Part shown: positions 1 through 20,514 of the stretch, piece by piece
Position numbering within the stretch: position 1 is the first letter of the stretch
Layout of the letters: each line of letters begins with the position of its first letter
DNA from: a virus
Length of the DNA stretch: 21,040 bases
IMG/VR virus record: IMGVR_UViG_3300009413_003408
Span: 1 to 21,040 of that record
Reading direction: 5' to 3' (one strand)
Notes under the pieces: model-generated
Databases searched by the model: none
Told to the model about the DNA's origin: nothing
The model's input: the letters and a program-made list of their open reading frames with translations, nothing else
Made by a program: the position numbers and the translations under genes

Positions 1-441
1 GTGACCGAACAACGACTTTTTCCCAAACCACTTTCTGCGCGCGACATCACCCCTTTTTCCAGTGCCCGACAGGCGTGGTTCTGGTTCGTGCGCTGTCAGA
101 CAGCCAGGATCGAAGGCGCGCGTGTGGTGGCCGACGCGGGCGAGGTGGTGCGCCCCTGTGACCCTGATGATGTTTATAACGCGGTGATGCGCCTTAAAAA
201 GGGGGGCATTCTGGGCGACCGGCATTTGCAGGTACTGGAATATTTTGGCCTCGTCGAACGCGAACCCGATGCCCGCGATCCACGTGAAAAGGACAAGGGT
301 GATTTATGGCAACAGGCCCTTGATGCGCTTGAAAATGTGCTGATCACGCGCGGCATTGTCAAACGCGGGCGTGATGAAAGTTTCCATCACGAGGATGTCG
401 CCGTCGAACTGGGTGGGGACCTGTCGCCATGCGGGATTTAA
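1..441 (+). CDS. Conserved hypothetical protein at left edge of late region
   Basis: This 146-residue protein starts with GTG at the first base of the window, so its ribosome-binding site cannot be checked and a longer upstream start is possible. The sequence is soluble, with no signal peptide or membrane segment. Recognisable features are an aromatic SARQAWFWFVRC stretch (about residues 21-32), a VRPCDPDDVYNAV segment (about 50-62) and a C-terminal helical DLWQQALDALE region. From memory this resembles a family of about 150 residues of unknown function in alphaproteobacterial chromosomes and prophages (SAREAWFW ... RPCEPDDV pattern); this was not searched. Its 3' end overlaps the next gene by 13 bases, suggesting translational coupling. 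No biochemical function can be assigned. Confidence 0.7.
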   Translation: MTEQRLFPKPLSARDITPFSSARQAWFWFVRCQTARIEGARVVADAGEVVRPCDPDDVYNAVMRLKKGGILGDRHLQVLEYFGLVEREPDARDPREKDKGDLWQQALDALENVLITRGIVKRGRDESFHHEDVAVELGGDLSPCGI

Positions 442-953
442 CCAATTTTCTCAAACTGGCCAAAACCGCCGAAACGGCTCAGGACTCCGCCGGTCCATGG
501 ATGGATCACTGGGCTGATAAATCTGCTTCCGGGCGCGAGGTTTCGGTGCTTGTCGTCTTTGCCGATGCGCCGGAAAAGCGATTGTTGCGTATCCTGAAAC
601 CGGGATTTCGTCATTGCTTTGTACTGGTTTCGGGGGTGCGGGCCGGGGAATGGATTTGCCTTGATCCGCAAAGCCATCGGGTGCGTTGTGAAAGCTGGTG
701 CTATTCGCCGATCTTTGATCCGGCGGCCTATTATCGTGGCCTTGGCTTTCACTGCATCTGGGCGCGGTATCCGGCCTCGGTTGCGCACAAGGTCCGCTTT
801 GGCCCGATGAGCTGTGTCGAGTTGGTCAAACGCCTTTTGGGCATTTCGGCCTTCTGGATCGTCACCCCCTGGCAGCTCTATCGCCATCTGCAACAGCGGG
901 CTGAAAACCCTGATCAGATCAGCGATGTGTTTTTTTCTGAAAAATGTTCTTGA
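429..953 (+). CDS. Phage protein, possible permuted papain/NlpC-like fold
   Basis: The protein has 174 residues. Its ATG overlaps the previous gene's stop region and is preceded by GGGGA at about 9 bases. There is no signal peptide. A His-first, Cys-later arrangement can be seen: FRHCFVLV (His62) followed by WICLDP (Asp79), then a helix beginning MSCVELVKRLLGI (Cys129) and TPWQLYRHL. In circularly permuted members of the NlpC/P60 superfamily (YiiX-like, LRAT-like) the catalytic His strand precedes the Cys helix, which this matches. The fold and any peptidase or amidase activity are inferred. A cell-wall or virion-associated hydrolase is possible, as is an inactive structural protein. A terminator follows at 1001, ending this two-gene unit. 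Confidence 0.7.
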   Translation: MRDLTNFLKLAKTAETAQDSAGPWMDHWADKSASGREVSVLVVFADAPEKRLLRILKPGFRHCFVLVSGVRAGEWICLDPQSHRVRCESWCYSPIFDPAAYYRGLGFHCIWARYPASVAHKVRFGPMSCVELVKRLLGISAFWIVTPWQLYRHLQQRAENPDQISDVFFSEKCS

Positions 954-1433: not shown

Positions 1434-2957
1434 ATGGCGAAATCGCAAAAGGCAGTGACTGAGGACAAGGCAACCGACGGGGCAGATATCACCCAGTTGC
1501 GCGCCCGTTTTCAAAAGGCGATGGAGCGCCGGCGCAACTGGATTGCGCATTGGCAGGATTGCTATGAATTTGCCCTGCCACAGCGCAATGCGGCAGCCAG
1601 CAACCAGACCAATGGCGGCAAGCGCCTGGATCGGGTGTTTGACGCAACCGCATCGGATGCGGTCGAACAGCTTGCCGCCAGCCTGATGGCCGAAATCACC
1701 CCGCCCGGTGGCGGCTGGTTTGAGCTGGAACCGGGCGGCAATGTCGCCAATGCAGACCGGCAGGCTCTGACCGAGCAACTTGGCCGGGCCGTTCGGATTT
1801 TGCAGGGGCATTTTGATCGCTCCAACTTTGCGGTCGAAATGCATCAGGCGTTTCTCGATCTGGTAACGGCCGGGACGGCGTGCTTGCGGTTGGAAAAGGC
1901 CGATTTGCACAGCCCGTCTGCATTGCGCTTTACCGCCGTGCCGTTGCGGGATCTGGCGTTTGAAGAACGATCCGATGGCAAGATGGATGCGGTCTTTCGC
2001 AAACTGGCGCTTACCCGCGCGGAAATCCTTGCAACCTGGCCGGGGGCAACGGGCTTTGCCGATGATGATCGCGATGGCAAGGACGCGCCGAAACGCTTCA
2101 CCGTGATCGAGGCCGTGCTTCCGGCAACCGACCGCAAAACCGGCTATGAGCTGTGTGTGTTTCGCGAAGACGGTGACGCCAATACCAATGATCTGATCTA
2201 TCGCGACCGGTTTGATGTGTCGCCCTATATCGCCTTTCGCTGGATGAAGGCACCGGGCGAGATTTATGGCCGGTCCCCGGTGATGAAGGCGCTGCCCGAT
2301 ATCAAGACCGCCAACAAGGTGGTGGAGCTGGTGCTGAAAAACGCCTCGATCGCCGTTAGCGGCATCTGGCAGGCCGATGATGATGGCGTTCTGAACCCGG
2401 CAACCATCCGCCTTTTGCCGGGCAGTATCATCCCCAAGGCTGTGGGATCGGCGGGGCTGAAACCGCTTGAGGCACCGGGGCGCTTTGATGTGTCGGATCT
2501 TGTTCTTTCTGATCTGCGCGATCGCATTCGGCGCTGCTTGCTGGCCGATCGGTTGGGCCAAACTGATCAACCGGGCATGACCGCGACCGAGGTGCTTGAA
2601 CGTGCGTCGGAAAACGCCCGACTTCTGGGTGCAACCTATGGCCGGTTGCAGGCGGAATTGCTTTATCCGCTGATCCGGCGTGCGCTTTATATCCTGACCC
2701 AAACCGGCGAGCTTCCCGACATCCCGCTGGATGGCGATGTTGTGGTGCTGCGCCATGCAGCCCCCTTGGCGCAACTGCCAAAACGGGTACAGGCGGGCCA
2801 GGCGCTTGATTGGCTGTCGCGCATTGCCGCCCTTGGCCCGGATGCCCTGGCAGAGGTCGATCTGCCCGTCATGGTCCGCTGGCTTGCCGATCAGTTTGGT
2901 GTGCCGGATCATCTTTTGCGGCCAAGCCTGCCACCCGAAATCACGGAGGCCGTGTGA
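1434..2957 (+). CDS. Portal protein (head-to-tail connector, T7 gp8-like)
   Basis: This 507-residue protein has the length and sequence character of the podoviral head-to-tail connecting protein family. The N-terminal helix (QKAMERRRNWIAHWQDCYEFALPQ) and the following VFDATASDAVEQLAASLMAEITPPG segment are typical of this portal family, as is the later YGRSPVMKALPDIKTANKVVE region. It would form the dodecameric ring at one capsid vertex through which DNA is packaged and ejected. It follows the small 1195 gene by two bases. Its stop TGA shares a base with the next ATG, so the genes form one translational unit. A long minus-strand open frame opposite it is a composition artefact. Confidence 0.93.
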   Translation: MAKSQKAVTEDKATDGADITQLRARFQKAMERRRNWIAHWQDCYEFALPQRNAAASNQTNGGKRLDRVFDATASDAVEQLAASLMAEITPPGGGWFELEPGGNVANADRQALTEQLGRAVRILQGHFDRSNFAVEMHQAFLDLVTAGTACLRLEKADLHSPSALRFTAVPLRDLAFEERSDGKMDAVFRKLALTRAEILATWPGATGFADDDRDGKDAPKRFTVIEAVLPATDRKTGYELCVFREDGDANTNDLIYRDRFDVSPYIAFRWMKAPGEIYGRSPVMKALPDIKTANKVVELVLKNASIAVSGIWQADDDGVLNPATIRLLPGSIIPKAVGSAGLKPLEAPGRFDVSDLVLSDLRDRIRRCLLADRLGQTDQPGMTATEVLERASENARLLGATYGRLQAELLYPLIRRALYILTQTGELPDIPLDGDVVVLRHAAPLAQLPKRVQAGQALDWLSRIAALGPDALAEVDLPVMVRWLADQFGVPDHLLRPSLPPEITEAV

Positions 2958-3342: not shown

Positions 3343-4014
3343 ATGACAACCGAACCCGACCTTCTCGCAACCGAACCCGACCTTCTCGCAACCGAAACCG
3401 AGACGCCGGAAGCACCGGAGGCAGAAGAAACACCCGAACTGCCTGATATCGAAACGCCGGCGCCCGAACCCAAACAGGACGTCGCAGTCCTCGCCGATCT
3501 GGTGCCTGAAACACCGGATGCCTACGCAATCACGCTTGCAGATGGCATGGAAGATATTGATACGGATTTAAACGAGCGCCTGCATGCGGCAGGCTTCAGC
3601 AACGCACAGGCTCAGTTGGTTTATGATCTGGCGGGGGAGGTTCTTTCACCGCTTCTGGGCGATCTGGATCAGGCGGCACAGCGGGCCACGGATCGGGCTG
3701 CTTTGGTGGCCGAGTTTGGCGGGGCGGAAAGCTGGAAGAAGCTGGCGCCGAAAATCGAAAGTTGGGGCAAGGCCAACCTGCCCGAGGCCGCCTTTGAAAC
3801 CCTGTGTCAAAGCGCCGATGGTGTGCGTGCCATGCATCGCATGATGGCGCAAAACACTGAAGCCGCCCTTGGCAAAGCTGATGGCGGGGCCGGGGATACA
3901 AGCCTGCGCTCCGAAATCCGGCGCAAGATGAATGATCCGCGCTATTGGCGGGATCGCGATCCGGCGCTGGTGGCCGAGGTGCAGGCGGATTTTGCCCAGC
4001 TTTCCGGGGAATAG
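3343..4014 (+). CDS. Capsid scaffolding/assembly protein
   Basis: This 223-residue, strongly acidic protein lies between portal and major capsid, the position of T7 gp9. The first 55 residues are rich in Glu, Pro and Thr and probably disordered. The middle (about 75-150) is helical (ERLHAAGFSNAQAQLVYDLAGEVLSPLLGDLDQAAQ). The C-terminus has a basic-acidic helix pair (LRSEIRRKMNDPRYWRDRDPALVAEVQADFAQL), similar to the short C-terminal capsid-binding segment of podoviral scaffolds (NDPxYWxxxDP). It would direct procapsid assembly and then leave. The N-terminus contains a tandem 7-residue duplication (TEPDLLA twice). The start is supported by CGGAG at 3331-3335, with 7 bases spacing. Confidence 0.85.
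   Translation: MTTEPDLLATEPDLLATETETPEAPEAEETPELPDIETPAPEPKQDVAVLADLVPETPDAYAITLADGMEDIDTDLNERLHAAGFSNAQAQLVYDLAGEVLSPLLGDLDQAAQRATDRAALVAEFGGAESWKKLAPKIESWGKANLPEAAFETLCQSADGVRAMHRMMAQNTEAALGKADGGAGDTSLRSEIRRKMNDPRYWRDRDPALVAEVQADFAQLSGE
3349..3390 (+). repeat. Tandem 21-bp direct duplication in scaffold N-terminus
   Basis: Two identical, adjacent 21-bp units (3349-3369 and 3370-3390) encode TEPDLLA twice, with the start of a third copy (ACCGAA) following. The identity at all bases, including wobble positions, indicates a recent slippage or duplication event. Confidence 0.95.
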
Positions 4015-4447: not shown

Positions 4448-5263
4448 ATGACAACCACGATTGATCAAAGCTTCATCGACCATTTTCAGGCCGATGTGCA
4501 TCAGGCCTATCAACGCATGGGATCAAAACTGCGCAACACGGTGCGGGTGAAAAACGCCATCAAGGGCGCGACCACGGTTTTCCAGAAAGTCGGCAAGGGC
4601 ACGGCCACCACCAAGGCCCGCCATGGCAAGGTGCCGGTAATGAATGTCGATCACGAGGCGGTCCGCTGTGACCTGCGTGATTACTATGCCGGCGACTGGG
4701 TCGATGCACTGGACGAGCTTAAAATCAACCATGATGAAAAGATGGTTCTGGCCAATGCCGGGGCCTATGCACTGGGCCGCAAGACCGACGAGCTGATCAT
4801 TAACGCGCTGGTCGGGGCCGATGATGTCGTGCCCGATAATACCGAGGGCATGACGCTTGATAAGGTGATGATGGCATTCGAAGGCCTTGGCGATCGCGAT
4901 GTGCCCGATGACGGGCAGCGCTATGCGATTGTCGGCTGGAAACAGTGGTCGGAGTTGCTTCTGATCGATGAATTTTCACGATCTGATTATATCGGTGATG
5001 AAGACCTTCCGTGGAAGGGCACACAGGCCAAACGCTGGCTTGGGACGCTCTGGATGCCCCATTCGGGCCTGCCGGTGGCAAGCGGCATTCGGTCCTGCTT
5101 CTGGTATCACCGCACCGCCATTGGCCACGCCATCGGCTCGGACGTTCAGTCCGACATCACCTGGCATGGCGATCACGCCGCACACTTTGTGAATAACTCC
5201 ATGAGCCAGGGGGCCGCGCTCATTGATGGCGATGGGGTGGTGTGCCTGAAAGCACAGGAATAG
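4448..5263 (+). CDS. Major capsid protein
   Basis: This 271-residue protein comes after the scaffold gene in the classical position of the major head protein. The sequence matches the general pattern of a podoviral capsid family often annotated as Phage_capsid_2: N-terminal YQRMGSKLRNTVRVKNAIKGATTVFQ, then HGKVPVMNVDHEAVRCDLRDYYAGDWVDALDELK. These are followed by an IVGWKQWSELLLIDEFSRSDY region and a C-terminal WMPHSGLP...CFWYHRTAIGHAIG segment. An HK97-type fold is expected from the family but cannot be seen directly. It would assemble with the portal and scaffold into the icosahedral head. No protease gene is visible nearby, consistent with T7-type heads that mature without a prohead protease. 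Confidence 0.9.
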   Translation: MTTTIDQSFIDHFQADVHQAYQRMGSKLRNTVRVKNAIKGATTVFQKVGKGTATTKARHGKVPVMNVDHEAVRCDLRDYYAGDWVDALDELKINHDEKMVLANAGAYALGRKTDELIINALVGADDVVPDNTEGMTLDKVMMAFEGLGDRDVPDDGQRYAIVGWKQWSELLLIDEFSRSDYIGDEDLPWKGTQAKRWLGTLWMPHSGLPVASGIRSCFWYHRTAIGHAIGSDVQSDITWHGDHAAHFVNNSMSQGAALIDGDGVVCLKAQE

Positions 5264-5290: not shown

Positions 5291-5378
5291 CGGGATCCAC
5301 GCCTGCGCGGGGATGACGGTGTCTGGGGTCGGTGCATGGAACGAACGTCATTCCCGCGAAGGCGGGAACCTCGACCCG
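5291..5378. repeat. REP/BIME-like inverted repeat, copy 3
   Basis: The left arm (5291-5318, GCCTGCGCGGGGATGACG variant) pairs imperfectly with the right arm (5346-5378, CGTCATTCCCGCGAAGGCGGG). The two arms are of different sequence subtypes, so this copy has diverged or recombined. It lies between the capsid gene and the 5407 gene. Confidence 0.8.
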
Positions 5379-5406
5379 CAAGCTCAAAACCAAACAGGAG
5401 CCCAAA

Positions 5407-5682
5407 ATGGCAGAAGGTTTCAAAGCCAGAAACCTCAGTGTTCTGGCATACGCCAACGGCTTTACGCTGTGGCACTACATCACCCCGGACGTCGCCGCCG
5501 ACGTCGATACCGCCGACTACTTTGCTGATGCGCGCGACATGCTGCGCGTCGGCGATTTCATCATCGCCAACACCAACCGCGACGCCACCATGTCCGGCGG
5601 CCTGTTTGTCGTCGCAAGTGCGGGTGCAGGCGGTGTCGATGTTCGCGATATGACGGCAATCGGTACCTCGAACACCGACTGA
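5407..5682 (+). CDS. Small capsid-adjacent protein, function unknown
   Basis: This 91-residue protein begins at the ATG preceded by CAGGAG (5394-5399). An in-frame upstream ATG inside the palindromic repeat is not credible. The sequence has ARNLSVLAYANGFTLWHYIT, an acidic aromatic stretch, then DMLRVGDFIIANTN and a glycine-rich C-terminal part (VVASAGAGGVDVRDM). It is probably a small beta-rich protein. Its position directly after the major capsid gene suggests a head decoration or head-completion role, which is inference from context only. The gene closes the head module; the terminator at 5726 follows. Confidence 0.75.
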   Translation: MAEGFKARNLSVLAYANGFTLWHYITPDVAADVDTADYFADARDMLRVGDFIIANTNRDATMSGGLFVVASAGAGGVDVRDMTAIGTSNTD

Positions 5683-5778: not shown

Positions 5779-6930
5779 ATGCAGGGTTCAACCCCAGTGG
5801 AATGTGAAGTTCTCAACGTTATTCAGGGTGCAGGTATCTGGCCTGATTGCGATGACAAGACCCAGTTACTGCAGGCAATTCAGGTTTTGGCTGATGCGCA
5901 AGGCATGAATGGTATTGCTGCAGCAGCTGGATACTTTTCGATGATGGGCAAGATGTCGGCGTCAGGTGCGACGTCGCTCAATATCCCCGAAGGGTCGGTC
6001 AATATTGGTGGTAACGGTAAAGGTTTCATCATCACGGCTCAGACCGGGTTCGATGTATCGGACGCTGCGAGCCATGACGGGTCTTTTACCAGTTTGGCCC
6101 TTGGCGATGACATCTACATCTACGCCGTCGACAACGGGGTGGCAGAAGCAAAACTTATTGCCAGCAAAAACGCCGATTTTCCCGACGGCTATAGTGCCGT
6201 AACCAGTCGCAAGATTGGTGGCTTCCACTACGGGCGCGTGCGTCCAGTTGCCAGTCGCTATGACACGGTATTTGTGCCGACTGTTCAGATCGTACCGAAC
6301 AGTGTCTGGGATTTGAATCATCGCCCGACCTGCGATCCGACCGGTATGGTTGAGATCGTCCCGGGTGGTTTCTGGGCAGACATCTACCTGAACTCCGAGG
6401 GCGGCGGAACTTGGCCGGAAAATGTGCCGGTCAGTCGATATGGACAGACATTGATCCGGAACCTTGATTATGCGCGCTCCGATATGCACTTGCTTGTGCG
6501 GAACGCAGGAAAGCGTCTGCCGACCGTGGAGGAGTTCATGACCTATGCGGAAGGTGCTCCAGCAGGTCAAGACAACAATAATGAATTCGCGTGGGCAGCA
6601 AATACAAATGGCAGCCCTTCGAGTGCAGGTTTTGTTGAGAAGTCTGTTTCAATGTTCAATGTGGTCGATGCCGTTGGGAACCTCTGGGATTTCCTTGATG
6701 ACCATCACGATTGGGGCGGGGCCTTTTCGAAGGATGCTAGTGTCGTCAATGTCGGTAAGGATGCTGCAATCCCGCGTGGCACGGTTGAACATGCCGATTG
6801 GAGCAACTTTGCGGGCGGCGGATCGTACACATATGGCGCTGGCGCTGGGTCACGTTGTTTGTACACTTCTTCGAAGCCATGGGTTACGAACGGTGTCGTC
6901 GGTTTGCGTGGTGTCTGTGAAGCCGCTTAA
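5779..6930 (+). CDS. Mtd-like C-type-lectin receptor-binding protein
   Basis: This 383-residue protein starts at the ATG preceded by AAGGAG at 7 bases. It has three visible parts. The first is an N-terminal module, TPVECEVLNVIQGAGIWPDCDDKTQLLQAI, shared with the next gene. The second is a beta-rich middle part (about 50-190). The third is a C-terminal formylglycine-enzyme/C-type-lectin-like domain (about 190-383), with GKRLPTVEEFMTYAEGAP, VVDAVGNLWDFLDDHHDW and the ending AGSRC...GLRGVCEAA. This ending matches the variable region of Mtd, the receptor-binding tropism protein of Bordetella phage BPP-1. In that phage a reverse transcriptase diversifies it; none is visible here. The likely role is recognition of a bacterial surface ligand at the tail tip. 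Base composition is less GC-rich than in flanking virion genes, suggesting module exchange. Confidence 0.85.
   Translation: MQGSTPVECEVLNVIQGAGIWPDCDDKTQLLQAIQVLADAQGMNGIAAAAGYFSMMGKMSASGATSLNIPEGSVNIGGNGKGFIITAQTGFDVSDAASHDGSFTSLALGDDIYIYAVDNGVAEAKLIASKNADFPDGYSAVTSRKIGGFHYGRVRPVASRYDTVFVPTVQIVPNSVWDLNHRPTCDPTGMVEIVPGGFWADIYLNSEGGGTWPENVPVSRYGQTLIRNLDYARSDMHLLVRNAGKRLPTVEEFMTYAEGAPAGQDNNNEFAWAANTNGSPSSAGFVEKSVSMFNVVDAVGNLWDFLDDHHDWGGAFSKDASVVNVGKDAAIPRGTVEHADWSNFAGGGSYTYGAGAGSRCLYTSSKPWVTNGVVGLRGVCEAA
6811..6927 (+). other. Candidate DGR-type variable region
   Basis: The last 39 codons before the stop resemble the variable repeat of Mtd-type targets. Fixed residues (GGGS, GAGSR, KPW, GLRGVC) alternate with codons ending in C or T, such as TAC, TAT, TGT, TAC, GTT, AAC, GGT, GTC and GTC. 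That is the pattern expected when template AAC/AAT codons are randomised at adenines. A small hairpin (AGACA-ATG-TGTCT, 6947-6959) and the 6970 terminator stem lie just downstream, where target-recognition hairpins occur in BPP-1. No template repeat was found in the window, so diversification is not established. Confidence 0.45.
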
Positions 6931-7024: not shown

Positions 7025-7627
7025 ATGCAGTGTTTCAGCCCGGTCGAAAGCGAAGTTCTCAATGTCGTGCTGGCGGCAGATATCCAGCCTGACCGTTTGG
7101 ATGACACGCAGTTGTTACAGGCGATCAATGCGTTGATTTCTGGCGGTGGCTCTGGCGGCAGTGGTGTTGTTGCAGGCAGCGAAATCGGTTCGGTTTCGGC
7201 CTTTGCCATGCCGACGCCACCGACTGGGTGGCTGGTCTGTGATGGGTCGGCGATCTCGCGCACCGAATATGCCGATCTATTTGCCGCTATTGGCACGCTT
7301 TGGGGCCATGGTGATGAGGTGACGACCTTTAACTTGCCGGACCTTCGTGGCGAGTTCGTTCGTGGCTTCGATGATGGTCGTGGTGTGGATGATGGGCGGG
7401 CGTTTGCTTCTGCCCAGAGTGATGAGTTTAAGAGCCATTACCATGGCTTTGTAAACCAGCTAGGCGCTCAGGACGCAGGCAACGATGGATACATCACAAC
7501 TGGCGACGATCCGGTTGATCAATCTCTTGCCAACTCAGTGACGGATAACGCAGGCGGTGACGAAACCCGTCCACGCAACATCGCGATGACTTATGCGATC
7601 AAGGCGTTTTATCCATCGGCGTCATAA
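7025..7627 (+). CDS. Tail-collar domain protein, second receptor-binding candidate
   Basis: This 200-residue protein starts at the ATG with GGAG 7 bases upstream. Residues 1-38 (SPVESEVLNVV...DDTQLLQAINAL) repeat the N-terminal module of the preceding Mtd-like protein. A Gly/Ser-rich linker (about 39-52) leads to a phage tail-collar domain: PTPPTGWLVCDGSAISRTEY, FNLPDLRGEFVRGFDDGRG, then SHYHGF and the C-terminal ETRPRNIAMTYAIKA. Tail-collar domains occur at the tips of tail fibres and short tails and often take part in host contact. The shared N-terminus implies that both proteins dock at the same virion site. It occupies the position where BPP-1 has the accessory, template and reverse transcriptase part of its diversity cassette. 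Confidence 0.85.
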   Translation: MQCFSPVESEVLNVVLAADIQPDRLDDTQLLQAINALISGGGSGGSGVVAGSEIGSVSAFAMPTPPTGWLVCDGSAISRTEYADLFAAIGTLWGHGDEVTTFNLPDLRGEFVRGFDDGRGVDDGRAFASAQSDEFKSHYHGFVNQLGAQDAGNDGYITTGDDPVDQSLANSVTDNAGGDETRPRNIAMTYAIKAFYPSAS

Positions 7628-7678: not shown

Positions 7679-7694
7679 TTTGGGGGCAAAACTG

Positions 7695-8273
7695 ATGGCG
7701 TTAAGTGATGTGGCGCTGTGTGCGCGGGCTTTGGTGATGATCGGGGCGGCGCCGATTTCATCGTTTGAGGAGGACGTCGCCGAGGCCGAGATTGCCCGGA
7801 TGCTGTATGCGAGCGTGCGTGACGGCATGCTGGCGGGCTATCCGTGGCGGTTTGCCGGGCGGGGGTGCTGGTTGTCGCGACTGGCTGGTGACGACGCGGC
7901 GACATCGCCCCAGGATGGAAGCCATCTGTTTGCCTTGCCACGCGATTTTATCCGCCTTCTGTCGCTTGAAAATGACGGGGGCAAGATTGCCCGGTTTGAG
8001 TTGCGCGATCAGGCGGTTCTGGTCGCGGGTGACAGTGCGCATCTTTCCTATGTCGCCAGACTGCCGGAGGGCAGCTTTCCGGCGTGGTTTGATATGGCCC
8101 TGATGGCGCGGCTGGCAGCGGAGTTTTGCCTGCCGCTGACCGAAAGCAGCACGCGGGCCGAGTACCTTTTCAAGCGGGCCGAGGACCAGTTGCGTGAAGC
8201 ACGGCTTGCCGATGCGCAGCAATCGACCCCGCATGCGATTGATGATTTTTCCCTGATTTCGGCGCGGGGCTAG
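7695..8273 (+). CDS. Tail tubular protein A (T7 gp11-like adaptor)
   Basis: This 192-residue protein has the start MALSDVALCARALVMIGA typical of the podoviral tail tubular protein A family. The body continues with the family pattern: ARMLYASVRDGMLAGYPWRFAGR, LPRDFIRLLSL, FDMALMARLAAEFCLPLTES. The ATG at 7695 is chosen because GGGGG lies 8 bases upstream; an in-frame upstream codon at 7680 sits inside the terminator T-run. In T7 this protein forms a dodecameric ring joining the portal to the nozzle. The next gene, the nozzle, fits this order. Composition is again GC-rich, unlike the preceding cassette. Confidence 0.88.
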   Translation: MALSDVALCARALVMIGAAPISSFEEDVAEAEIARMLYASVRDGMLAGYPWRFAGRGCWLSRLAGDDAATSPQDGSHLFALPRDFIRLLSLENDGGKIARFELRDQAVLVAGDSAHLSYVARLPEGSFPAWFDMALMARLAAEFCLPLTESSTRAEYLFKRAEDQLREARLADAQQSTPHAIDDFSLISARG

Positions 8274-8316
8274 GGGCGTGGGTCGGGCCTTGGTCCGCGG
8301 GTTTGGAGCCTGCGGT

Positions 8317-8420
8317 GCGAGTTTCCCGCCTTCGCGGGAATGACGTTTGTTCCATGAGATTGTTTTACCTTCCGTCATCCCCGCGAAGAGCCTGTGCCCG
8401 CGAAGGCGGGTACGGGGATC
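8317..8420. repeat. REP/BIME-like inverted repeat, copy 4 (composite right arm)
   Basis: The left arm (8317-8345) has the TTCCCGCCTTCGCGGGAATGACG element. The right side begins CGTCATCCCCGCGAAG at 8373, is interrupted by AGCCTGTG, then has CCCGCGAAGGCGGGTACGGGG to about 8417. The right arm is therefore a partial duplication of the palindrome. It lies between the tail tubular and nozzle genes. Confidence 0.8.
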
Positions 8421-8464
8421 CCGATCCACAAGCGTATTACCTTTATTCATTGAGGGAGCATCCC

Positions 8465-10393
8465 ATGGCACGCCGCGTTCTGGAGAAAAACACGTTTTCG
8501 ACCGGCGAACTGGCCCCGGAATTGTGGGGGCGCTCGGACCTGAGCGCCTATGCCAATGGGGCAGCACGCCTGCGCAATGTTTTTATCGAACCATCGGGCG
8601 GGGTGCGTCGCCGTCCCGGCATTCGATTGATCGATGAACTGTCCGGTCCGGCGCGGTTGATTCAGTTCGAGTTCAATACCGAACAGACCTATTTGCTGGC
8701 CTTTGGCGATAAACATGCACTGGTGTTCGAGGATGAGGCAAAGACGATCTGGTTTGAAACCACGTTCGGCGAAGAACAGCTTGATCTTTTGAACTGGACG
8801 CAAAGTGCCGATACGCTTCTGGTGGTGCATCCCGCGGCCCCGCCGGTGCGTATTACCCGGACAGGCGATGGCAGCTGGCAAACCACCCTTTGGGCCTGGC
8901 GCGAAACCAATTTCCGCACCAGCCAGCCCTATTACAAGTTTGTCGAACCCGCCGCCACCCTGACCCCGTCAGGCACCAGCGGGACGGTGAGCCTTACCGC
9001 GAATGTGGATTTGTTCGTTGCGGGGCATGTTGGCACGCTGTGGCGGATTCAGGGGATCGAGGGTGAGATCACCAACGTTTCCGATGCCCGGACCGCACAA
9101 ATCGCCCTGAAGCAGGCACTGCCCAACACCAATGCCACGGTCGATTTCGTCGAACAGGCCTTTTCCGAAGTGCGCGGTTGGCCGCGCAGTGTGACCTTTC
9201 ATCAGGACCGGTTGATCATCGGCGGATCGCGCGATCTGCCCAACCGCCTGTGGATGTCAAAGTCTGGTGATCTGTTTAATTTCGAACTGGGCGAGGGCCT
9301 TGATGACGAGGCGATTGAATTTGCCCTGCTGGCTGATCAGGTCAATGCGATCACGGGCATTTTCGCCGGGCGTCATTTGCAGGTCTTTACCAGCGGATCG
9401 GAATGGATGGTGACGGGTGATCCGCTCACCCCGGCCAATGTGCAGGTCACGCGCCAGACCCGGATCGGCAGCCAAAGTGATCGCACTGTGCCACTGGTCA
9501 ATGTCGATGGTGCGACGCTTTTTGCCGGGCGGAGCGGGCGCGAAATTCGCGAATTCCTGTTCACCGATGTCGAACAGGCTTATGGATCAGCCGACCTTGC
9601 CTTGCTGTCACGCCATCTGATCAATCATCCCATCGATCAGGCCTTTGATCCGGAACGCCGGCTTTTGCATGTGGTGATGCACGATGGATCGCTTGCCACC
9701 CTGACGCTGTATCGGTCTGAGGCCATCACCGCCTGGTCGGCGCAATCGGTTGCGGGATGTTCCTTTAGATCCGTTTCGGTATCCGGCGGGGATGTCTATG
9801 TTGTGCTGGAACGCGACGGGCATCATTTCCTGGGCGTGTTTGACCCGCAATGCGGTTTCGACCTTTATCGCCGCCATGCGGTGGCAGAGGGCGAACCGCC
9901 ACGCCGACATTGGGGCAATCTTGATGCACTGGATGGCCTTGATGTCAGCGTTTGGCACGATGGCGTTCTTGCCGATGACATCCCGGTTGCCGGGGGCACG
10001 ATTACGCTGCCAGATCGTATCGGGGCAGTGGCGGAGATCGAGGTCGGCTTGCCCTTTACCCATGAAATCTATGCCCTGCCGCCGGCCGCATCGGATGGCA
10101 GCCGCCCGCATGGCGGCAATGCCGTGCGGCTGGTCTCGGTGACCCTGCGCTTGCAGGAAACCGGGCAGTTGCGCGTTGATACCGGTCGGGGATTGCGCGA
10201 TGTCGCACTTCCGGTATCTGCGCTACCCGATGACAAAGACGCGCTGTATAGCGGGGATATCACGCTGCGCGCGCTTGGCTGGCGGCGGGGCAGTGGCGGG
10301 GGACTGAAAAGTGGACTTTGGCGCATCGCCGGGGCATTGCCCCGGCCTTTTTTATTGCTTGGTGTGGCCAGTGAAATGGGGGTGAATGACTGA
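8465..10393 (+). CDS. Tail nozzle protein (tail tubular protein B-like)
   Basis: This 642-residue protein starts at the ATG preceded by GAGGGAG. Upstream in-frame codons fall in the palindromic repeat. It shows hallmarks of the podoviral nozzle family: FSTGELAPELWGRSDLSAYANGAARLRNVFIEPSGG at the N-terminus ("FxxGExSPxLxGRxDLxxYxxG"), FVEQAFSEVRGWPRSVTFHQDRL, then GGSRDLPNRLWMSKSGDLFNF and the FTSGSEWMVTG segment. T7 gp12 forms the hexameric nozzle below the adaptor ring and carries the fibres. Its stop overlaps the next ATG (TGATG). An unusual terminator-like hairpin lies inside its last 70 bases. Confidence 0.9.
   Translation: MARRVLEKNTFSTGELAPELWGRSDLSAYANGAARLRNVFIEPSGGVRRRPGIRLIDELSGPARLIQFEFNTEQTYLLAFGDKHALVFEDEAKTIWFETTFGEEQLDLLNWTQSADTLLVVHPAAPPVRITRTGDGSWQTTLWAWRETNFRTSQPYYKFVEPAATLTPSGTSGTVSLTANVDLFVAGHVGTLWRIQGIEGEITNVSDARTAQIALKQALPNTNATVDFVEQAFSEVRGWPRSVTFHQDRLIIGGSRDLPNRLWMSKSGDLFNFELGEGLDDEAIEFALLADQVNAITGIFAGRHLQVFTSGSEWMVTGDPLTPANVQVTRQTRIGSQSDRTVPLVNVDGATLFAGRSGREIREFLFTDVEQAYGSADLALLSRHLINHPIDQAFDPERRLLHVVMHDGSLATLTLYRSEAITAWSAQSVAGCSFRSVSVSGGDVYVVLERDGHHFLGVFDPQCGFDLYRRHAVAEGEPPRRHWGNLDALDGLDVSVWHDGVLADDIPVAGGTITLPDRIGAVAEIEVGLPFTHEIYALPPAASDGSRPHGGNAVRLVSVTLRLQETGQLRVDTGRGLRDVALPVSALPDDKDALYSGDITLRALGWRRGSGGGLKSGLWRIAGALPRPFLLLGVASEMGVND
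10328..10353 (+). terminator. Terminator-like hairpin inside the nozzle gene
   Basis: A perfect 8-bp stem GCCGGGGC / GCCCCGGC with an ATT loop is followed by C and six T. It lies within the coding sequence, about 40 bases before the stop, and encodes AGALPRPFLL. By sequence it is as strong as the intergenic terminators, but translation would normally keep it unfolded. Confidence 0.55.
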
Positions 10394-10833
10394 TGGGTGG
10401 ATTTACATCAATCGTGCCGATGGCGGCATCGGTCCTGCAAACCGGACAACGCATTAGCGCCAACCAGACCAATGCACAAAGCCGGATTGATCAGGGCGAA
10501 GCCGCCCGTCAGGCGGAGCTGGCCGAGATCGAGGCGCGCCAGCGTGAAGACGCCACCAAACGCGAAGAGGAGCTTCGGCGGCGTCAGGCAACCGCGCGTG
10601 CCCGGCAAGGGGCATCGGGGCTGATGGCCGGTGGGTCTGGTTCGGCCAGCGCGGTTCTGGCGGGGTTTGAAAAGACCGCGCGGCAGGATGCGGAACTGGA
10701 CGCAGATGCCGCTGCCCGCAAGCGACGCCGCATCAACCAACAGGCCGCCTGGCGCGAAAAGTCGCTGTTGCGATCGACGCAGGATGACACGGTCGCACGG
10801 CTGAATGCCTGGTTTTCAAAGCGTGATGGCTGA
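10393..10833 (+). CDS. Coiled-coil virion protein, possible internal core protein
   Basis: This 146-residue protein begins at an ATG overlapping the nozzle stop. After a hydrophobic N-terminal stretch (FTSIVPMAASVLQTGQRI) it is almost entirely charged helix, about residues 30-70 (GEAARQAELAEIEARQREDATKREEELRRRQ pattern). A glycine-rich hinge follows (ASGLMAGGSGSAS, near 73-85), then a second charged helix rich in Arg and Ala. Proteins of this kind sit between nozzle and fibre genes in podoviruses, where internal or ejected virion proteins are encoded. The family identity is not certain. It is much smaller than T7 gp14, gp15 or gp16. No large lytic-transglycosylase core protein is seen nearby. 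Confidence 0.75.
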   Translation: MGGFTSIVPMAASVLQTGQRISANQTNAQSRIDQGEAARQAELAEIEARQREDATKREEELRRRQATARARQGASGLMAGGSGSASAVLAGFEKTARQDAELDADAAARKRRRINQQAAWREKSLLRSTQDDTVARLNAWFSKRDG

Positions 10834-10855: not shown

Positions 10856-12259
10856 ATGGGCGCTGTTTTTGCCAATCAGATCCGTGCCACCATTGCCTTT
10901 GTCGGCGATGGCGCGCGTGACAAATTTCCGTTTGATTTTGATGTGTTTGATGCGGGTGATCTGCGCATCACCATCAATGGCAATGAAATCGAAACCGGGT
11001 TTCACGTCGCCTTGACGCCCAGTGATGAGGGCGGCGGTGGTGTGGTGCGGTTTGAACACCCGCCGGAAACCGGTGCCCGGATCACCATTGCCCGCCAGTT
11101 GCATTTGCGCCGGCTAAGTGCCTTTGACGCCATGTCGATCCCGCGCGGTGATGCGCTGGAACGTGATCTTGATTTCATGACGGCCGCCCTTGGCGATGTT
11201 GATCACGCACTGACCGGGACGCTGCGCTTTGGTCCGGATCAGGATGCACCTGCATCGGCTGAATTGCCGGTGATCACGCCCGGTCGGGCCCTGATCTGGA
11301 ACGCGGCGGGCACGGGGCTTGCCAACGGACCCAGTGGGGCGGAGATCGCGCAGGCCAGCACCAAGGCAGCGCAGGCACAGGATGCCGCCAACCGGGCGGA
11401 GGCCGCCGAAAGCCGATCTGAAATCGCGGTCGCGTCGTTTGAAAGATCAAACGCCTCGGCGATGCTTGATCTTGATTTTCGCAGTGGCGATGTCCTGGCG
11501 TGGGAGGATGAGCGCCGCATGCCGGTGATTGATGCGCCGGTCAGCCGGATCATGGATATCCGCGAAACCGGATCGCTGGTCAGGCTTTCCAGCGGGGCGC
11601 AATTGACCTTGCCGGTGGCATCTGTTGCGCGCAATGGGGTGAGCTATCGCGTGTTTAACGGTGATGGCACGATGGTCGATATTACAACGGCGGCGGGGAA
11701 TGTCATCCGCCCGACCAACGGCGGGGCGGAGGTGACCGTTTATCCGTTGCCGACACGCGGTGACATGGTCGATCTGATCTGTGATGGCACGCGCTGGTTT
11801 GCTGCCCCGATCCATGAAACCGGCCCGGTGGTGAAGCTTTTGCGGACGGCCAGCCAATCCATTCCGGCGGGTGGGGCGTTTCTGGTTGAATGGGATCAGG
11901 TGATCGAAGACAGCCACGGGCTTTATGACAGTGCGGTGCATGGCGTGACGGGCCTTCCGCCGGGCTTTTATCACGTTGATATCGGGGTGCGGCTTCCGAT
12001 TACCGACCAGTCGGTCTTTACGACTTTGTCGCTCGAACGCTTTGACGGCACCGATTGGTCGAGCCACCTGCAAGCCAATGACATCACCGCCACGGGCAGC
12101 GGGGCGGCGCACAGCTTGCGGCTGAATGGCATTGCCCGGATCGGGGCAACGCCCGGTACCGGATTGCGTTTGCGCATCGTGCATAGCGACACCCAAACGC
12201 GCGAAATCGCGGCAAGTGATCTTTTGACCTGGTGTCACATCCATCGCATTGGCGGCTAG
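10856..12259 (+). CDS. Tail fibre protein with T7-type N-terminus and C1q-like tip
   Basis: This 467-residue protein starts at the ATG preceded by GGGGGAAG. Residues 1-110 have the beta-rich anchor pattern of T7 tail fibres: FVGDGARDKFPFDFDVFDAGDLRI ... GVVRFEHPPETGARITIARQL. An alanine-rich coiled coil (about 160-195, TKAAQAQDAANRAEAAESR) probably trimerises the shaft. The C-terminal part (about 320-467) reads IPAGGAFLVEWDQVIED, LPPGFYHVDIGVRLP and LRLRIVHSDTQ, resembling the jelly-roll C1q/TNF-like tips of many phage fibres; this part of the call is less certain. It would attach to the nozzle and contact the cell surface. Confidence 0.82.
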   Translation: MGAVFANQIRATIAFVGDGARDKFPFDFDVFDAGDLRITINGNEIETGFHVALTPSDEGGGGVVRFEHPPETGARITIARQLHLRRLSAFDAMSIPRGDALERDLDFMTAALGDVDHALTGTLRFGPDQDAPASAELPVITPGRALIWNAAGTGLANGPSGAEIAQASTKAAQAQDAANRAEAAESRSEIAVASFERSNASAMLDLDFRSGDVLAWEDERRMPVIDAPVSRIMDIRETGSLVRLSSGAQLTLPVASVARNGVSYRVFNGDGTMVDITTAAGNVIRPTNGGAEVTVYPLPTRGDMVDLICDGTRWFAAPIHETGPVVKLLRTASQSIPAGGAFLVEWDQVIEDSHGLYDSAVHGVTGLPPGFYHVDIGVRLPITDQSVFTTLSLERFDGTDWSSHLQANDITATGSGAAHSLRLNGIARIGATPGTGLRLRIVHSDTQTREIAASDLLTWCHIHRIGG

Positions 12260-12314
12260 CACGCCACCACGCACCTGCCATCCATCGACTACACACTGAT
12301 CGGAGATGCATCCA

Positions 12315-13421
12315 ATGGGATTGCGTTATCAGCCGCTTGCGGCCTGCATGAATGTTTCGCGCGCCAGCACCAAGCTTATCCAAAGCCAAAATGGCCTGCT
12401 TGAAACCCGCGCGATTGATGAACCGGCCTATGACCATGATCGGCTTGGCCGTCGCCTGGGCCTTTTGATCGAGGGGGCGGCGACCAACCTGCTGCGCTAC
12501 TCAATGGCCTTTGACAATGCGCTTTGGGAAAAGAACATTGGTGTGGTGGTAAGTGCCAGCACAATCGCCGCCCCGGATGGCAGCCAAACCGCGATGCAGC
12601 TTGATCTGCCGGGCAGTGCGGCGGGTGCGGATGGCCTGTATCAGAATGTCGGCGGGCTTGTGGCCAGTGAAACCTATAGCTTTGCCGTCTGGATGCGTGC
12701 GGTATCAGGCACGGCTGACATCACGCTTGGCGGGATTGACGGGGCCTCCACACATGGTTTTGCCTTGGATGAAAACTGGCAGCGGGTGTGGATTGCTGAA
12801 CCGGCTTCAAACACCACGCGATACCCGAAAATCAGCACCGCAATCAGCGCACTTCCGGCATCCATCCTGATCTGGAATGCGCAGCTTGAAGTCGGGCCAG
12901 CCCCCACCAGCGATATCATCAGCAACGGCATTCCGGCAGCGCGGGCGTGCGATGATGTGCGGCTTGATCCCGGCGACTGGTTCGCCCAGGGCCCGGGCAC
13001 ACTGGTGTTTGATCTCCATACCGCCAAGGATTGGGCAGGTATCTGGCGGATCGTGCAGCTTTATTCCGCAAGCCTCAATGATGATCACCTTGATCTTGGC
13101 TATGACAGTGCCGCCGATCAGTTGCGCATTTCGCTGCGTTCTGATGGCGTGCCGCTCGTCACCCAGTCGCTTTATGGAAGCCTTGCCAAGGATACCCGCC
13201 ATCGCATCGCGCTGGCATGGGATGATGATGTGATTTCGGTCGGGCTGGATGGTGTGGTGCTGTCATCGCCGGATGGCTTTGCCATGCCACGCAATTTTTC
13301 CAACATCGTGTTGGGCTCGTTTGGCGGAACCGACAAGGCCCTGAACGGCCATGTGCGCAATCTGGCCTACTGGCCGGAAAAGCTATCGAATGCGCGGCTG
13401 ATCGAACTTTCAACGGTTTAG
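12315..13421 (+). CDS. Lectin-like phage fibre/tail-associated protein
   Basis: The call uses the ATG at 12315 (MGLRYQPLAACMNVS, 368 residues), which has CGGAG 9 bases upstream. The alternative ATG at 12306 touches that site. The N-terminal part has a phage motif seen in tailspike and fibre proteins: GRRLGLLIEGAATNLLRYS with a tryptophan nearby (LWEKN). A carbohydrate-binding-like beta sandwich follows (about 80-200; TYSFAVWMRAVSGTADITL, NWQRVWI). The C-terminal part (about 220-368; GTLVFDLHTAKDWAG, RHRIALAWDDDVISVGLDG, IVLGSFGGTDKALNGHVRNLAYWPE) has the pattern of a LamG/concanavalin-type sandwich. It probably binds surface glycans and is encoded directly after the main fibre. Confidence 0.75.
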   Translation: MGLRYQPLAACMNVSRASTKLIQSQNGLLETRAIDEPAYDHDRLGRRLGLLIEGAATNLLRYSMAFDNALWEKNIGVVVSASTIAAPDGSQTAMQLDLPGSAAGADGLYQNVGGLVASETYSFAVWMRAVSGTADITLGGIDGASTHGFALDENWQRVWIAEPASNTTRYPKISTAISALPASILIWNAQLEVGPAPTSDIISNGIPAARACDDVRLDPGDWFAQGPGTLVFDLHTAKDWAGIWRIVQLYSASLNDDHLDLGYDSAADQLRISLRSDGVPLVTQSLYGSLAKDTRHRIALAWDDDVISVGLDGVVLSSPDGFAMPRNFSNIVLGSFGGTDKALNGHVRNLAYWPEKLSNARLIELSTV

Positions 13422-13430
13422 GGATGGCGC

Positions 13431-13787
13431 ATGACTGAGACAGAAAAAGCCGATCCGGTTGCGAGTTTACGGGCCGAACTGCTACGTGATTTGCCCGGTG
13501 ATATCAAACGTGTGCGCAATGCCTATCGCCGTGCGGCACAGCAGGCCGCCCTTATGCGCGACGCCAAGGATTTCAACACCCATCAGGCGGCGTGCAAGGC
13601 GGCCCTTGGGCATCTTGATGGGTTGATCAAGTTGCTGCGGTGGGCGAGTGAAGAGGGCGAAGATAAAAAACAACTCCGTAAGAGTCTTAGTGCGGAAAGC
13701 TCTGATGATTTGATTAGAACTGCTAGAAAAAGAATGAACTATTCCTCTTGTCTGTTTGGATCTTCGACAGGGGCTCCCCAGCTTTGA
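13431..13787 (+). CDS. Probable small terminase subunit, altered 3' end
   Basis: This 118-residue helical protein (ELLRDLPGDIKRVRNAYRRAAQQAALMRDAKDFNTHQAACKAALGHLDGLIK pattern) starts 9 bases after the preceding stop, with AGGGA 6 bases upstream. It has no membrane segment. Position and size (T7 gp18 is 89 residues) suggest the DNA-recognising small terminase paired with the large subunit at 15564. Composition changes abruptly near base 13665 from GC-rich to AT-rich. The last 16 residues (YSSCLFGSSTGAPQL end) are encoded in the antisense of the KAP gene's 3' end, with 49 bases overlap. The original C-terminus has probably been replaced where that gene was inserted. Confidence 0.65.
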   Translation: MTETEKADPVASLRAELLRDLPGDIKRVRNAYRRAAQQAALMRDAKDFNTHQAACKAALGHLDGLIKLLRWASEEGEDKKQLRKSLSAESSDDLIRTARKRMNYSSCLFGSSTGAPQL

Positions 13788-15451: not shown

Positions 15452-15563
15452 TTAGGGCCTCAAGAAAATTCAGAACAATGGTTCGTAGGGTAAACGCAAA
15501 AAACTGTGATGGCGATGGATATAACCGTGATGGTTGTATTGTTTTCCAGAGAGGCGACGCTCT

Positions 15564-17078
15564 ATGAAGACTGTCAATATTACTGCAAGCTTCGCCGAAT
15601 TCGTCTGGATCTGGGATCAGATGTTGGGGCTGAATTTGCCCGGCCATCATCGCAAGATGGCCGATTGGCTTGAAGACTGCTGGCGGTCGGGCAAGCGGGA
15701 AATGCTTTTGATGGCGTTTCGCAATTCCGGCAAATCGACACTGGTCGGGTTGTTTTGTGCCTGGTTGCTTTATCGCGATGCCGATATGCGTATTCTGGTT
15801 CTGGCGGCTGATCTGGATCTGGCGAAAAAGATGGTGCGCAACGTCAAGCGCGTGATTGAACGCCATCCATTGATGAGCACCCTTTTGCCCGACAAGCGGA
15901 TCGATTGGGGCAGTGAGCGGTTTACCGTGGCGCGAACGGCTGTGTTGCGTGATCCGTCGATGCAGGCGGTGGGTATTGGCGGCAACATCACCGGATCGCG
16001 CGCCGATATCGTGATTTGCGATGATGTCGAGGTGCCCAAAAACAGCGATACCGCCCATAAACGTGCCGAGCTGCGCGAAAAGCTTGGCGAAATTGCCTAT
16101 GTGCTGGGGCCACGTGGTGCGCAGCTTTATGTCGGAACCCCGCACAGCTATTATTCGATCTACGCCCGCGAAGCGCGATCCGAGGTCGGCGAAGCTGCCC
16201 CGTTCCTTGACGGTTTTTCACGCTTTGAGCTGCCCATCGTCAATAAGGACGGGGCGTCAAACTGGCCGGAAAGATTTGATCTGACCGCGATCAAGGCGAT
16301 GCGGATCCGTACCCCGGTTCGCAAGTTTCAAAGCCAGATGATGCTTGAAATGGTCGCACCCGTGGCCGGGATGCTCGATCCGGCAAAATTGCGGTTCTAC
16401 GACGATCAAGCCGAGGTCACGCATGGCAATGGCCGCATGACGCTTCGGATTGGCGGGCGGACCATGGTGGCGAGTGCCTGCCATTTTGATCCGAGTTTCG
16501 GGTCGCTTCGGGGTGACGGGGCGGTGGTAGCGTGCGTTTATATCTGTGATCAGGGGGAATACTGGTTGCAGGATGTCGCGTGGTTGCGCGCGGCCAATCC
16601 GGGCGATCCGGCCGAAAGCGGTGACAGGCCATGGCGCGATGAAGCCAGCCAGCTTTGTGCGCAGGTGGCCGACTTCATGGCGCGCCATCACTTGCCGTCT
16701 GTTCGGGTCGAGACCAATGGCATTGGCCGGTTTTTGCCCAATATCCTTCGGCGTGAACTGAAATCAATCGGATGGGCCGCCAGCGTCGTAGAGCATTATG
16801 AGAGTACGAACAAAGCCACCCGGATCGAGGACGCCTTTGGCGCGGTGATGGGCGCGGGATTGTTGCATGTGCATGAAGGCGTTCGCCACACACCGTTCCT
16901 GCGCCAGATGCGCGATTGGCATCCTGAGGGGAATGGCCCGGATGACGGGCTGGATGCGGTGGCAGGCTGTATTTTGCATGATCCGGTGCGTTTGCCGCGG
17001 GTCGATATGCCGGTCAAACGTGCCGATTGGCGGGGGATTGGCGGGATTTTCCGGGCCGAGAGCCACTTCAACCCGTGA
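15564..17078 (+). CDS. Terminase large subunit
   Basis: This 504-residue packaging motor protein starts at MKTVNITASFAEF, with AGAGAGG 9 bases upstream; ten extra codons from 15534 are unlikely. The ATPase half has Walker A AFRNSGKST (51-59), Walker B IVICDDVE (149-156) and coupling motif YVGTPH (189-194). The RNase H-like nuclease half shows ACHFDPSFGS (first Asp at 309), VRVETNGIGRFLP, and the final acidic motif DDGLDA (460-465). It cuts and pumps DNA into the head through the portal. Its location after the fibres matches T7 gp19. It is separated from the small terminase by the KAP gene, which may uncouple their expression. Confidence 0.95.
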   Translation: MKTVNITASFAEFVWIWDQMLGLNLPGHHRKMADWLEDCWRSGKREMLLMAFRNSGKSTLVGLFCAWLLYRDADMRILVLAADLDLAKKMVRNVKRVIERHPLMSTLLPDKRIDWGSERFTVARTAVLRDPSMQAVGIGGNITGSRADIVICDDVEVPKNSDTAHKRAELREKLGEIAYVLGPRGAQLYVGTPHSYYSIYAREARSEVGEAAPFLDGFSRFELPIVNKDGASNWPERFDLTAIKAMRIRTPVRKFQSQMMLEMVAPVAGMLDPAKLRFYDDQAEVTHGNGRMTLRIGGRTMVASACHFDPSFGSLRGDGAVVACVYICDQGEYWLQDVAWLRAANPGDPAESGDRPWRDEASQLCAQVADFMARHHLPSVRVETNGIGRFLPNILRRELKSIGWAASVVEHYESTNKATRIEDAFGAVMGAGLLHVHEGVRHTPFLRQMRDWHPEGNGPDDGLDAVAGCILHDPVRLPRVDMPVKRADWRGIGGIFRAESHFNP

Positions 17079-17777: not shown

Positions 17778-17807
17778 ACCCGCAAGCCATAGGTTTGCGG
17801 GTTTTTC
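17778..17807 (+). terminator. Intrinsic terminator between moron and lysis genes
   Basis: A perfect 8-bp stem (ACCCGCAA / TTGCGGGT) with a 9-base loop is followed by TTTTC. It lies 24 bases upstream of the 17831 start, so lysis-gene expression must read through it or start nearby. Confidence 0.75.
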
Positions 17808-17830
17808 TTTGTCTGATTATCGAGGCCCCC

Positions 17831-18154
17831 ATGACCCTGCCTGTGACCCAGTCTGTCGATGTGATCTGGTGGATCACGGCTGTTGAAATCCCTGTTGTCG
17901 CCAGCCTGTTCTGGCTGCATTGGCGGATGCGTTCCGAATTGCTGAGCCGCGTGGAACAGCAACGCAGCCGACAGGACACAGACGTCACCGATCTGCGGGA
18001 TGGCTTGGCGGCGTTCAAGCTTGATGTCGCGCGCAACTATGTCTCCATCCCCTATCTCAAGGATGTCGAAAAGCGCCTGACCGGCCATTTGCTCCGGATC
18101 GAGGCCAAACTCGATACCCCCATCATCCCGACCCAAAAGGATCAGAGCTTATGA
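17831..18154 (+). CDS. Membrane coiled-coil protein of the lysis cassette
   Basis: This 107-residue protein starts at the ATG 5 bases after GAGG. In-frame codons further upstream lie inside the terminator. It has one N-terminal membrane span (about 10-29, VIWWITAVEIPVVASLFWLHW), a basic RMR, then a long charged helix (about 33-98) ending LKDVEKRLTGHLLRIEAKLD. Single-span plus coiled-coil topology and its place immediately before endolysin and holin suggest a lysis accessory protein, possibly spanin- or pinholin-like. It could equally be an unrelated membrane-anchored protein. It overlaps the hydrolase by ATGA (four bases), so the two are translationally coupled. Confidence 0.75.
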   Translation: MTLPVTQSVDVIWWITAVEIPVVASLFWLHWRMRSELLSRVEQQRSRQDTDVTDLRDGLAAFKLDVARNYVSIPYLKDVEKRLTGHLLRIEAKLDTPIIPTQKDQSL

Positions 18155-18621
18155 ATGACACCCAAACCCTGACCAGATCGGCCCCGCAACCGGTAACCGA
18201 CCCCGATATGCTGTCCGAAGTCGAAGTGCTTGCCCGCACGCTCTATGGCGAGGCGCGCGGCGAAGAACTCTCCGGGATCGAGGCCGTGGCATCGGTCATC
18301 CTCAACCGGGTGGCCTTTGCCAAACGGCGCGGTCGCTATTGGTGGGGCAATGACATCAAGTCGGTGTGCCTGAAACCGGCACAGTTTTCCTGCTGGAACG
18401 CCAAGGATCCCAACCGCAAGAAGCTGCTGGCACTCAGCCCGCGTGACCCGGCCTATCGCTTGTGCAAACGCATCGCCAAGCGCGCAGTGGCGGGTGAGCT
18501 TCCCGACCCAACCGATGGTGCCACCCACTATCACACCCATGCGGTCGATCCGTTCTGGGCAAGTGGGCATGTGCCGGTCGCCGAGATCGGAAACCACTTG
18601 TTTTACAAAAATATTGGGTAG
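18151..18621 (+). CDS. SleB-type cell wall hydrolase (endolysin)
   Basis: This 156-residue protein consists almost entirely of a cell-wall hydrolase SleB domain (Hydrolase_2 family). Visible family motifs are LARTLYGEARGE with the presumed catalytic Glu34, VASVILNRV (46-54), LKPAQFSCWN (about 74-83), and the C-terminal DGATHYHTHAVDPFWA. In this family the enzyme cleaves peptidoglycan glycan strands as a lytic transglycosylase. There is no signal peptide, so it needs the holin encoded next to reach the wall. It overlaps the upstream membrane protein gene by four bases and precedes the holin by 11 bases. Confidence 0.92.
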   Translation: MNDTQTLTRSAPQPVTDPDMLSEVEVLARTLYGEARGEELSGIEAVASVILNRVAFAKRRGRYWWGNDIKSVCLKPAQFSCWNAKDPNRKKLLALSPRDPAYRLCKRIAKRAVAGELPDPTDGATHYHTHAVDPFWASGHVPVAEIGNHLFYKNIG

Positions 18622-20489: not shown

Positions 20490-20514
20490 GCAAATCCCGC
20501 CAAGATCAGACAAT

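Follow-up and report, generated by a model that had tools for sequence, protein, structure and literature searches.

Introduction

Gene transfer agents (GTAs) are defined as Caudoviricete-derived, endogenized elements that are inherited vertically with the host, package mostly random host DNA and deliver it, whereby their own genome is not fully packaged (PMC9662315). For the alphaproteobacterial representatives, the portal and terminase of BaGTA have been described as lambda-like (PMC2697382), and Rhodospirillales have no RcGTA-like cluster in the GTA-Hunter table (PMC6821227). The report on FpGTA of Faecalibacterium presents it as the first GTA-like element of podovirus-like type (PMC12946183). 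Particles of Azospirillum contain ~10 kb of random host DNA and have no firmly assigned genes (PMC3899980); they are a lead for an element related to the one described here.

Here, we analyzed a complete IMG/VR virus record of 21,040 bases (the window), in which a preliminary description had pointed out an Mtd-like receptor-binding gene with a DGR-type variable C-terminus but with no reverse transcriptase (RT) or template in view. Two explanations had been offered, namely that the retroelement acts from a distance or that the target has been orphaned and fixed. Our analysis makes it probable that 5779-6930 encodes a fixed, exchangeable Mtd head on a particle-specific adaptor, as one part of a podovirus-like element of GTA type that Thalassospira has domesticated.

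Results

The Window Encodes an Mtd-Type Protein Within a Podovirus-Type Gene Cluster

The product of 5779-6930 matches the Pfam family mtd_2nd (4.6e-25) and, at the sequence level, the PDB entry of Mtd-M1, 1yu2 (1.4e-18). Its AlphaFold2 model (mean pLDDT 78.5, lowest in the adaptor and the lectin loops) likewise matched 1yu2 in Foldseek (E 7e-19), and the five top PDB matches of the model were the five Mtd variants (E ~1e-18). Membership in the Mtd family, as proposed in the preliminary description, is thus borne out, with homology in sequence and fold across the beta-prism/sandwich and lectin domains. The Mtd variable-region layout suggested for the C-terminus is also visible in an alignment with 48-61% identical relatives that have known templates. 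The Mtd head comprises a beta-prism and a C-type lectin, and in alignment A1 the Mtd of DGR phages begins at ~column 42. Searches of plasmids and of NCBIfam with the protein gave no match. Close relatives of the window Mtd (65-100%) are found in Thalassospira genomes and in virus records having the same element, and statements on the host of the window rest on these relatives. One record (L002), which is 100% identical with the same coordinates and probably represents the same genome as the window, was left out as an independent sequence.

The features of the window are compiled in Table 1. The 5332-5682 gene is present in nearly all element copies compared. The KAP-family NTPase gene is missing from L003, L007, L072, and L086 and is thus regarded as accessory cargo. 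No integrase or replication genes were found among the typed genes of the record.

Table 1. Features of the 21,040-base window.
Position	Strand	Feature	Evidence or remark
1..441	+	g1, first gene of the element	65-99% in Thalassospira loci
429..953	+	g2, conserved element gene	conserved in Thalassospira loci
1434..2957	+	portal / head-to-tail connector	Pfam Head-tail_con 9.5e-126; dN/dS 0.13
3343..4014	+	scaffold, T7 capsid-assembly family	Pfam PF05396 5.1e-12
4448..5263	+	major capsid protein	Pfam Phage_capsid_2 1.2e-79; dN/dS 0.09
5332..5682	+	small conserved gene directly upstream of slot	PHROG 18004 7e-20
5779..6930	+	Mtd-type receptor-binding protein, 383 aa	ATG 5779, stop 6930
5779..5913	+	N-terminal particle adaptor, socket A, ~residues 1-45	not in DGR-phage Mtd
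6442..6903	+	C-type-lectin head, swapped as block among strains	window vs L004 nucleotide identity
6814..6924	+	former DGR variable region (VR), without template	aligned with the VR/TR pairs from relatives
7025..7627	+	second receptor-binding gene: socket-B adaptor and tail-collar head	Pfam Collar 7.7e-24
7680..8273	+	tail protein directly downstream of slot	PHROG 394 tail 5.5e-36
8303..10393	+	tail protein	PHROG 376 3.6e-123; dN/dS 0.18
10393..10833	+	internal virion protein, T7 gp14-like (weak)	PHROG 418 1.7e-06
10856..12259	+	tail protein	PHROG 1640 3.7e-07
12306..13421	+	tail protein, laminin-G-like domain (weak)	PHROG 5939 1.1e-37; Laminin_G_3 7e-4, below cut-off
13431..13787	+	small conserved element gene	PHROG 31793 3.6e-13
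13739-15451	-	KAP-family NTPase gene, between 13431..13787 gene and terL	
15534..17078	+	terminase large subunit	PHROG 38 3.1e-84; dN/dS 0.09
17795..18154	+	small conserved gene, lysis end	conservation across element copies
18151..18621	+	cell wall hydrolase (endolysin)	Pfam Hydrolase_2 3.3e-21
18633..19121	+	holin, GTA_holin_3TM family	Pfam PF11351 6.5e-16
19122-20513	-	pentapeptide-repeat protein, accessory cargo; between holin and PhzF-like host gene	
20690..21040	-	host gene, PhzF-like by inspection; right chromosomal flank	91% nt G042, 85% G029

The Mtd Gene Has DGR-Bearing Relatives in Phages but No DGR Was Found in the Thalassospira Genomes Searched

Viral Mtd relatives with 48-61% identity have a template repeat ~400 bp downstream of the gene, plus an RT. 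The gene order in L008 is Mtd, an Avd-like ORF, the template, and the RT, and the annotation of Chromohalobacter phage YPCBV-1 gives avd and RT directly downstream of Mtd. In the DGR-bearing relatives, most differences between VR and template fall on template adenines. When near-identical pairs were compared (L017/18/19 and L015/16), 33-72% of AAY positions 1-2 had changed, along with 0/9 third positions and 0/84 other VR positions, at ~1% difference elsewhere in the gene. Since change is confined almost solely to AAY positions 1-2, the DGR is taken to be active in these phages. The YPCBV-1 Mtd itself (OP380511.1 33159-34208; L212) is annotated as a SUMF1/EgtB/PvdO enzyme, yet a DGR comes after it, which marks a misannotation. 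Another DGR-type phage record, L012, has two VR-like Mtd ends (10919-11053 and 12030-12164) and no RT within 43 kb; it is possibly a system with two targets whose RT is distant or missing.

Across all 21,040 bases of the window neither an RT nor a template repeat or second VR copy was found, so that what had been out of view in the preliminary description is missing from the entire record. We then searched the whole genomes of G024, G025, and G026, which carry the gene with an Mtd 65-72% identical to that of the window. No RT of any kind was found in G024 or G025, and the single RT of G026 (~1000 aa) is without the GNLTSQ motif, which is present in many of the DGR RTs compared. None of the three genomes contains a second VR copy. 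At the level of the genus, 17/29 Thalassospira genomes are without any RT, and the GNLTSQ motif occurs in 0/16 RTs found across Thalassospira. Thus, the near-copy of the VR beside a DGR-type RT, which had been put forward as a search target, was found in none of the three genomes, neither the copy nor the RT, and this speaks against a retroelement that acts from a distance.

The Lectin Head Changes in Blocks

The many C/T-ending codons that had been noted at the variable positions are not above chance, as 6/9 AAY-derived codons end in this way compared to 62% of codons gene-wide (P = 0.52). For the AAY-derived codons of Thalassospira the count is 41/54, compared to 104/108 in DGR phages (p = 0.00015, which is descriptive because the sequences are related and non-independent). 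Judged by these counts, the variable codons in Thalassospira have lost their pyrimidine-ending signature.

The expectation that variation concentrates at AAY-derived codons was checked by alignment and did not hold for the Thalassospira pairs, in which variation is spread out. The window and L004 share 97-100% nucleotide identity up to codon 220 but only 62-73% over ~codons 222-360, where synonymous change is saturated, before identity rises again at the 3' end. Further breakpoints lie near codons 240 and 320 in the comparisons L005/L006 and L006/L007. Between L004 and L025 (T. alkalitolerans), 0/18 AAY positions 1-2 differ, compared to 27% outside the VR. L003, whose Mtd is 98% identical to that of the window, departs from the latter at a single AAY-derived base. 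Among the Thalassospira copies, change is free at synonymous and non-AAY sites. The sharp breakpoints, together with the variation away from AAY positions, argue for block exchange and not retrohoming, as expected of lectin-head blocks that are swapped via homologous recombination.

In the sequences searched and compared, three features of a DGR are lacking: a DGR-type RT, an A-rich template, and variation confined to adenine-derived positions. Because no DGR-type RT or second VR was found in the record and the three genomes, the pyrimidine signature is gone, and the lectin head changes as blocks, the target appears orphaned. The proposal of an orphaned and fixed target gains support from the three DGR-free genomes and from variation away from the AAY codons. 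On this sequence evidence, the locus shows a DGR target that persists without a DGR.

The Receptor-Binding Slot Combines Adaptors and Heads

The Mtd gene lies in a slot between the 5332-5682 gene and the 7680-8273 tail gene, which holds one to four receptor-binding genes. This insertion is carried by many Thalassospira, and the window Mtd gene is one member of it. Each slot gene pairs an N-terminal adaptor, of which there are three (sockets A, B, and C), with one head, whereby the heads are of two collar types, a Gly-rich type, one further type without family, or Mtd. The three sockets each bear several head types, and Mtd is found on all of them: the window has it on A, T. alkalitolerans has it on B, and the 65% group has it with a short start of the C type. 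Elsewhere in Thalassospira, socket A bears a collar or a Gly-rich head, and the adaptor of the 7025-7627 product is homologous to the Mtd N-terminus. G042 and the window share 91-99% identity around the slot (lower in parts), yet G042 has other heads. In G035, G036, G183, and G150 the slot is empty and the flanking genes are only 85-148 bp apart, so that the receptor-binding array is a derived insertion.

In the preliminary description, a tail-collar gene was noted at the position where BPP-1 has its template repeat and RT. The collar gene has not taken the place of a lost DGR; collar and Mtd genes both belong to the derived, adaptor-bearing insertion. We also considered a DGR that decayed within the slot and rejected it, since nothing in the slots of 20 Thalassospira regions was recognised as the remnant of an RT or a template and the slotless genomes join the flanks within those few base pairs. 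Within the flanks compared, the Mtd part alone is common to the DGR phages and the window, which makes it most likely that the Mtd head was captured from unrelated DGR phages, with a presumed direction from phage to element.

The Element Is Conserved in Thalassospira and Beyond

The capsid gene is present as a single copy in 29/29 Thalassospira genomes (species). The same gene order was found in 20 Thalassospira regions, and in the eight genomes whose flanks were read the host flanks are syntenic on both sides; the right end of the window falls in the same host gene as those of G029 and G042. The capsid, portal, and terminase genes have dN/dS values of 0.09, 0.13, and 0.09, respectively, without internal stops. 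The median dS is 0.90 for the capsid gene and 0.87 for gyrB. Distance matrices of capsid, portal, and tail correlate with that of the host (gyrB) at a Mantel r of 0.87-0.89, and that of the terminase at 0.67 (9 genomes). Tree splits in common with gyrB amount to 12/25 (random mean 0.2), an agreement that covers only about half of the splits. An ordinary prophage context, as had been assumed, does not fit an element that is single-copy, syntenic, genus-wide, and under purifying selection and that diverges alongside gyrB.

In the order, the capsid gene was matched in 151/297 sampled genomes, so that losses or transfers must occur. In the class 84/385 match, in two groups of ~55% or more and of 35% or less. 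The nearest phages are HTVC010P-type podoviruses (~30-46%), and one 5-kb faecal fragment matches at 62%. L219, a contig of a 0.9-Mb genome, has conserved element genes in rearranged order.

Those Thalassospira regions in which a divergent S24 regulator gene was recognised have it 399-8509 bp upstream of g1. It lies 124 bp upstream of g1 in G150 of the same order, and it adjoins the cluster in L214, L215, L218, L221, and L222 of the class (42-59% identity). It is a candidate repressor of the element. Examples of the divergent S24 (LexA/CI-like) regulator are L136:956-1576, L148:12468-13085, and L154:13925-14554, and repeated AGAACAAAAWAGGA-like motifs separate the S24 gene from g1 in L148 and L150.

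Discussion

The fixed and exchangeable Mtd head that we propose builds on the Mtd homology, the absence of a DGR from the record and three genomes, the lectin blocks, the adaptor-head swaps, and the conservation of the element. The element would most likely make short-tailed particles, which may package host DNA and transfer it. The adaptor would dock the head onto the tail and the Mtd lectin would bind a surface receptor, whereby the exchange of heads and lectin domains by homologous recombination could reset which cells the particles bind.

A DGR acting in trans, whether encoded at another place in the host genome or by a co-resident phage, would fit the intact VR layout and the single AAY-derived base by which L003 differs from the window. 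We give this very little credence, however, in view of the three whole genomes with neither a DGR-type RT nor a second VR copy, the lost pyrimidine signature, and the free change at synonymous and non-AAY sites. Also improbable is a temperate podovirus prophage of the ordinary kind that lost its DGR through decay at this site. The structural and lysis genes are indeed of phage type, in many genomes the element is preceded by a divergent S24 repressor, and HTVC010P-type podophages have related capsids and portals, but a single-copy capsid gene in every species, identical host flanks wherever read, a capsid dS equal to that of gyrB with congruent distances, and the absence of integrase and replication genes among the typed genes are at odds with such a prophage, just as the slotless relatives and the slots without recognised remnants are with a DGR decayed in place.

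A conserved element that serves a purpose other than gene transfer, e.g., the killing of relatives by DNA-containing particles, deserves more weight, although we still regard it as unlikely. Bacteriocin-like phage particles typically have variable receptor-binding heads as well, and those of the slot would suit this role. On the other hand, capsid, portal, and terminase, none of which a tailocin needs, are intact and under purifying selection, and a GTA-family holin is present.

Going further than the exchangeable Mtd head in Thalassospira, we lean towards a third, podovirus-type lineage of alphaproteobacterial GTAs that would be ancient, extend over much of the class, and have its own S24 repressor, with an inserted array of plug-in heads in Thalassospira, one of which would derive from DGR phages and now change by recombination and no longer by retrohoming. 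This suggests that a particle which is domesticated and vertically maintained may continue to alter its receptor-binding protein around a core that remains frozen, and the recipient range of a GTA becomes testable as an evolving trait. The conserved podovirus-type cluster across Alphaproteobacteria stands as prophage in virus databases and is undescribed in the open-licence GTA literature searched, which is weak evidence of absence.

Compared to the GTA definition, the element has Caudoviricete-derived structural proteins, is fully endogenized, and shows vertical inheritance with co-diversification within Thalassospira. Because these are three of the defining features and the other three call for experiments, we refer to it as GTA-like and not as a GTA (definition in PMC9662315). 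The RcGTA-like elements (Rhodogtaviriformidae) and BaGTA (Bartogtaviriformidae) are likewise endogenized phage-derived clusters under vertical inheritance and purifying selection (PMC9662315). The portal, scaffold, and capsid of the Thalassospira element are of T7 type, unlike those of RcGTA and BaGTA. Its genes and those of RcGTA come from different phage types. The Mtd-type protein has the whole-length fold, the VR layout, and the C-terminal C-type lectin in common with known Mtd, whereas it has an extra N-terminal adaptor, is without template, Avd, and RT, and varies by block exchange. The YPCBV-1 Mtd is 49.6% identical to it over 88% of the length, but YPCBV-1 is a phage of the baseplate type, and its avd and RT genes directly follow Mtd. 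FpGTA is, like the Thalassospira element, podovirus-like and GTA-like, with structural, receptor-binding, and lysis genes (PMC12946183). It differs in its Gram-positive host, its two operons, and the ~9-kb DNA shown in its particles (PMC12946183), whereas the Thalassospira element belongs to Alphaproteobacteria, occupies one locus, and is known from sequence alone.
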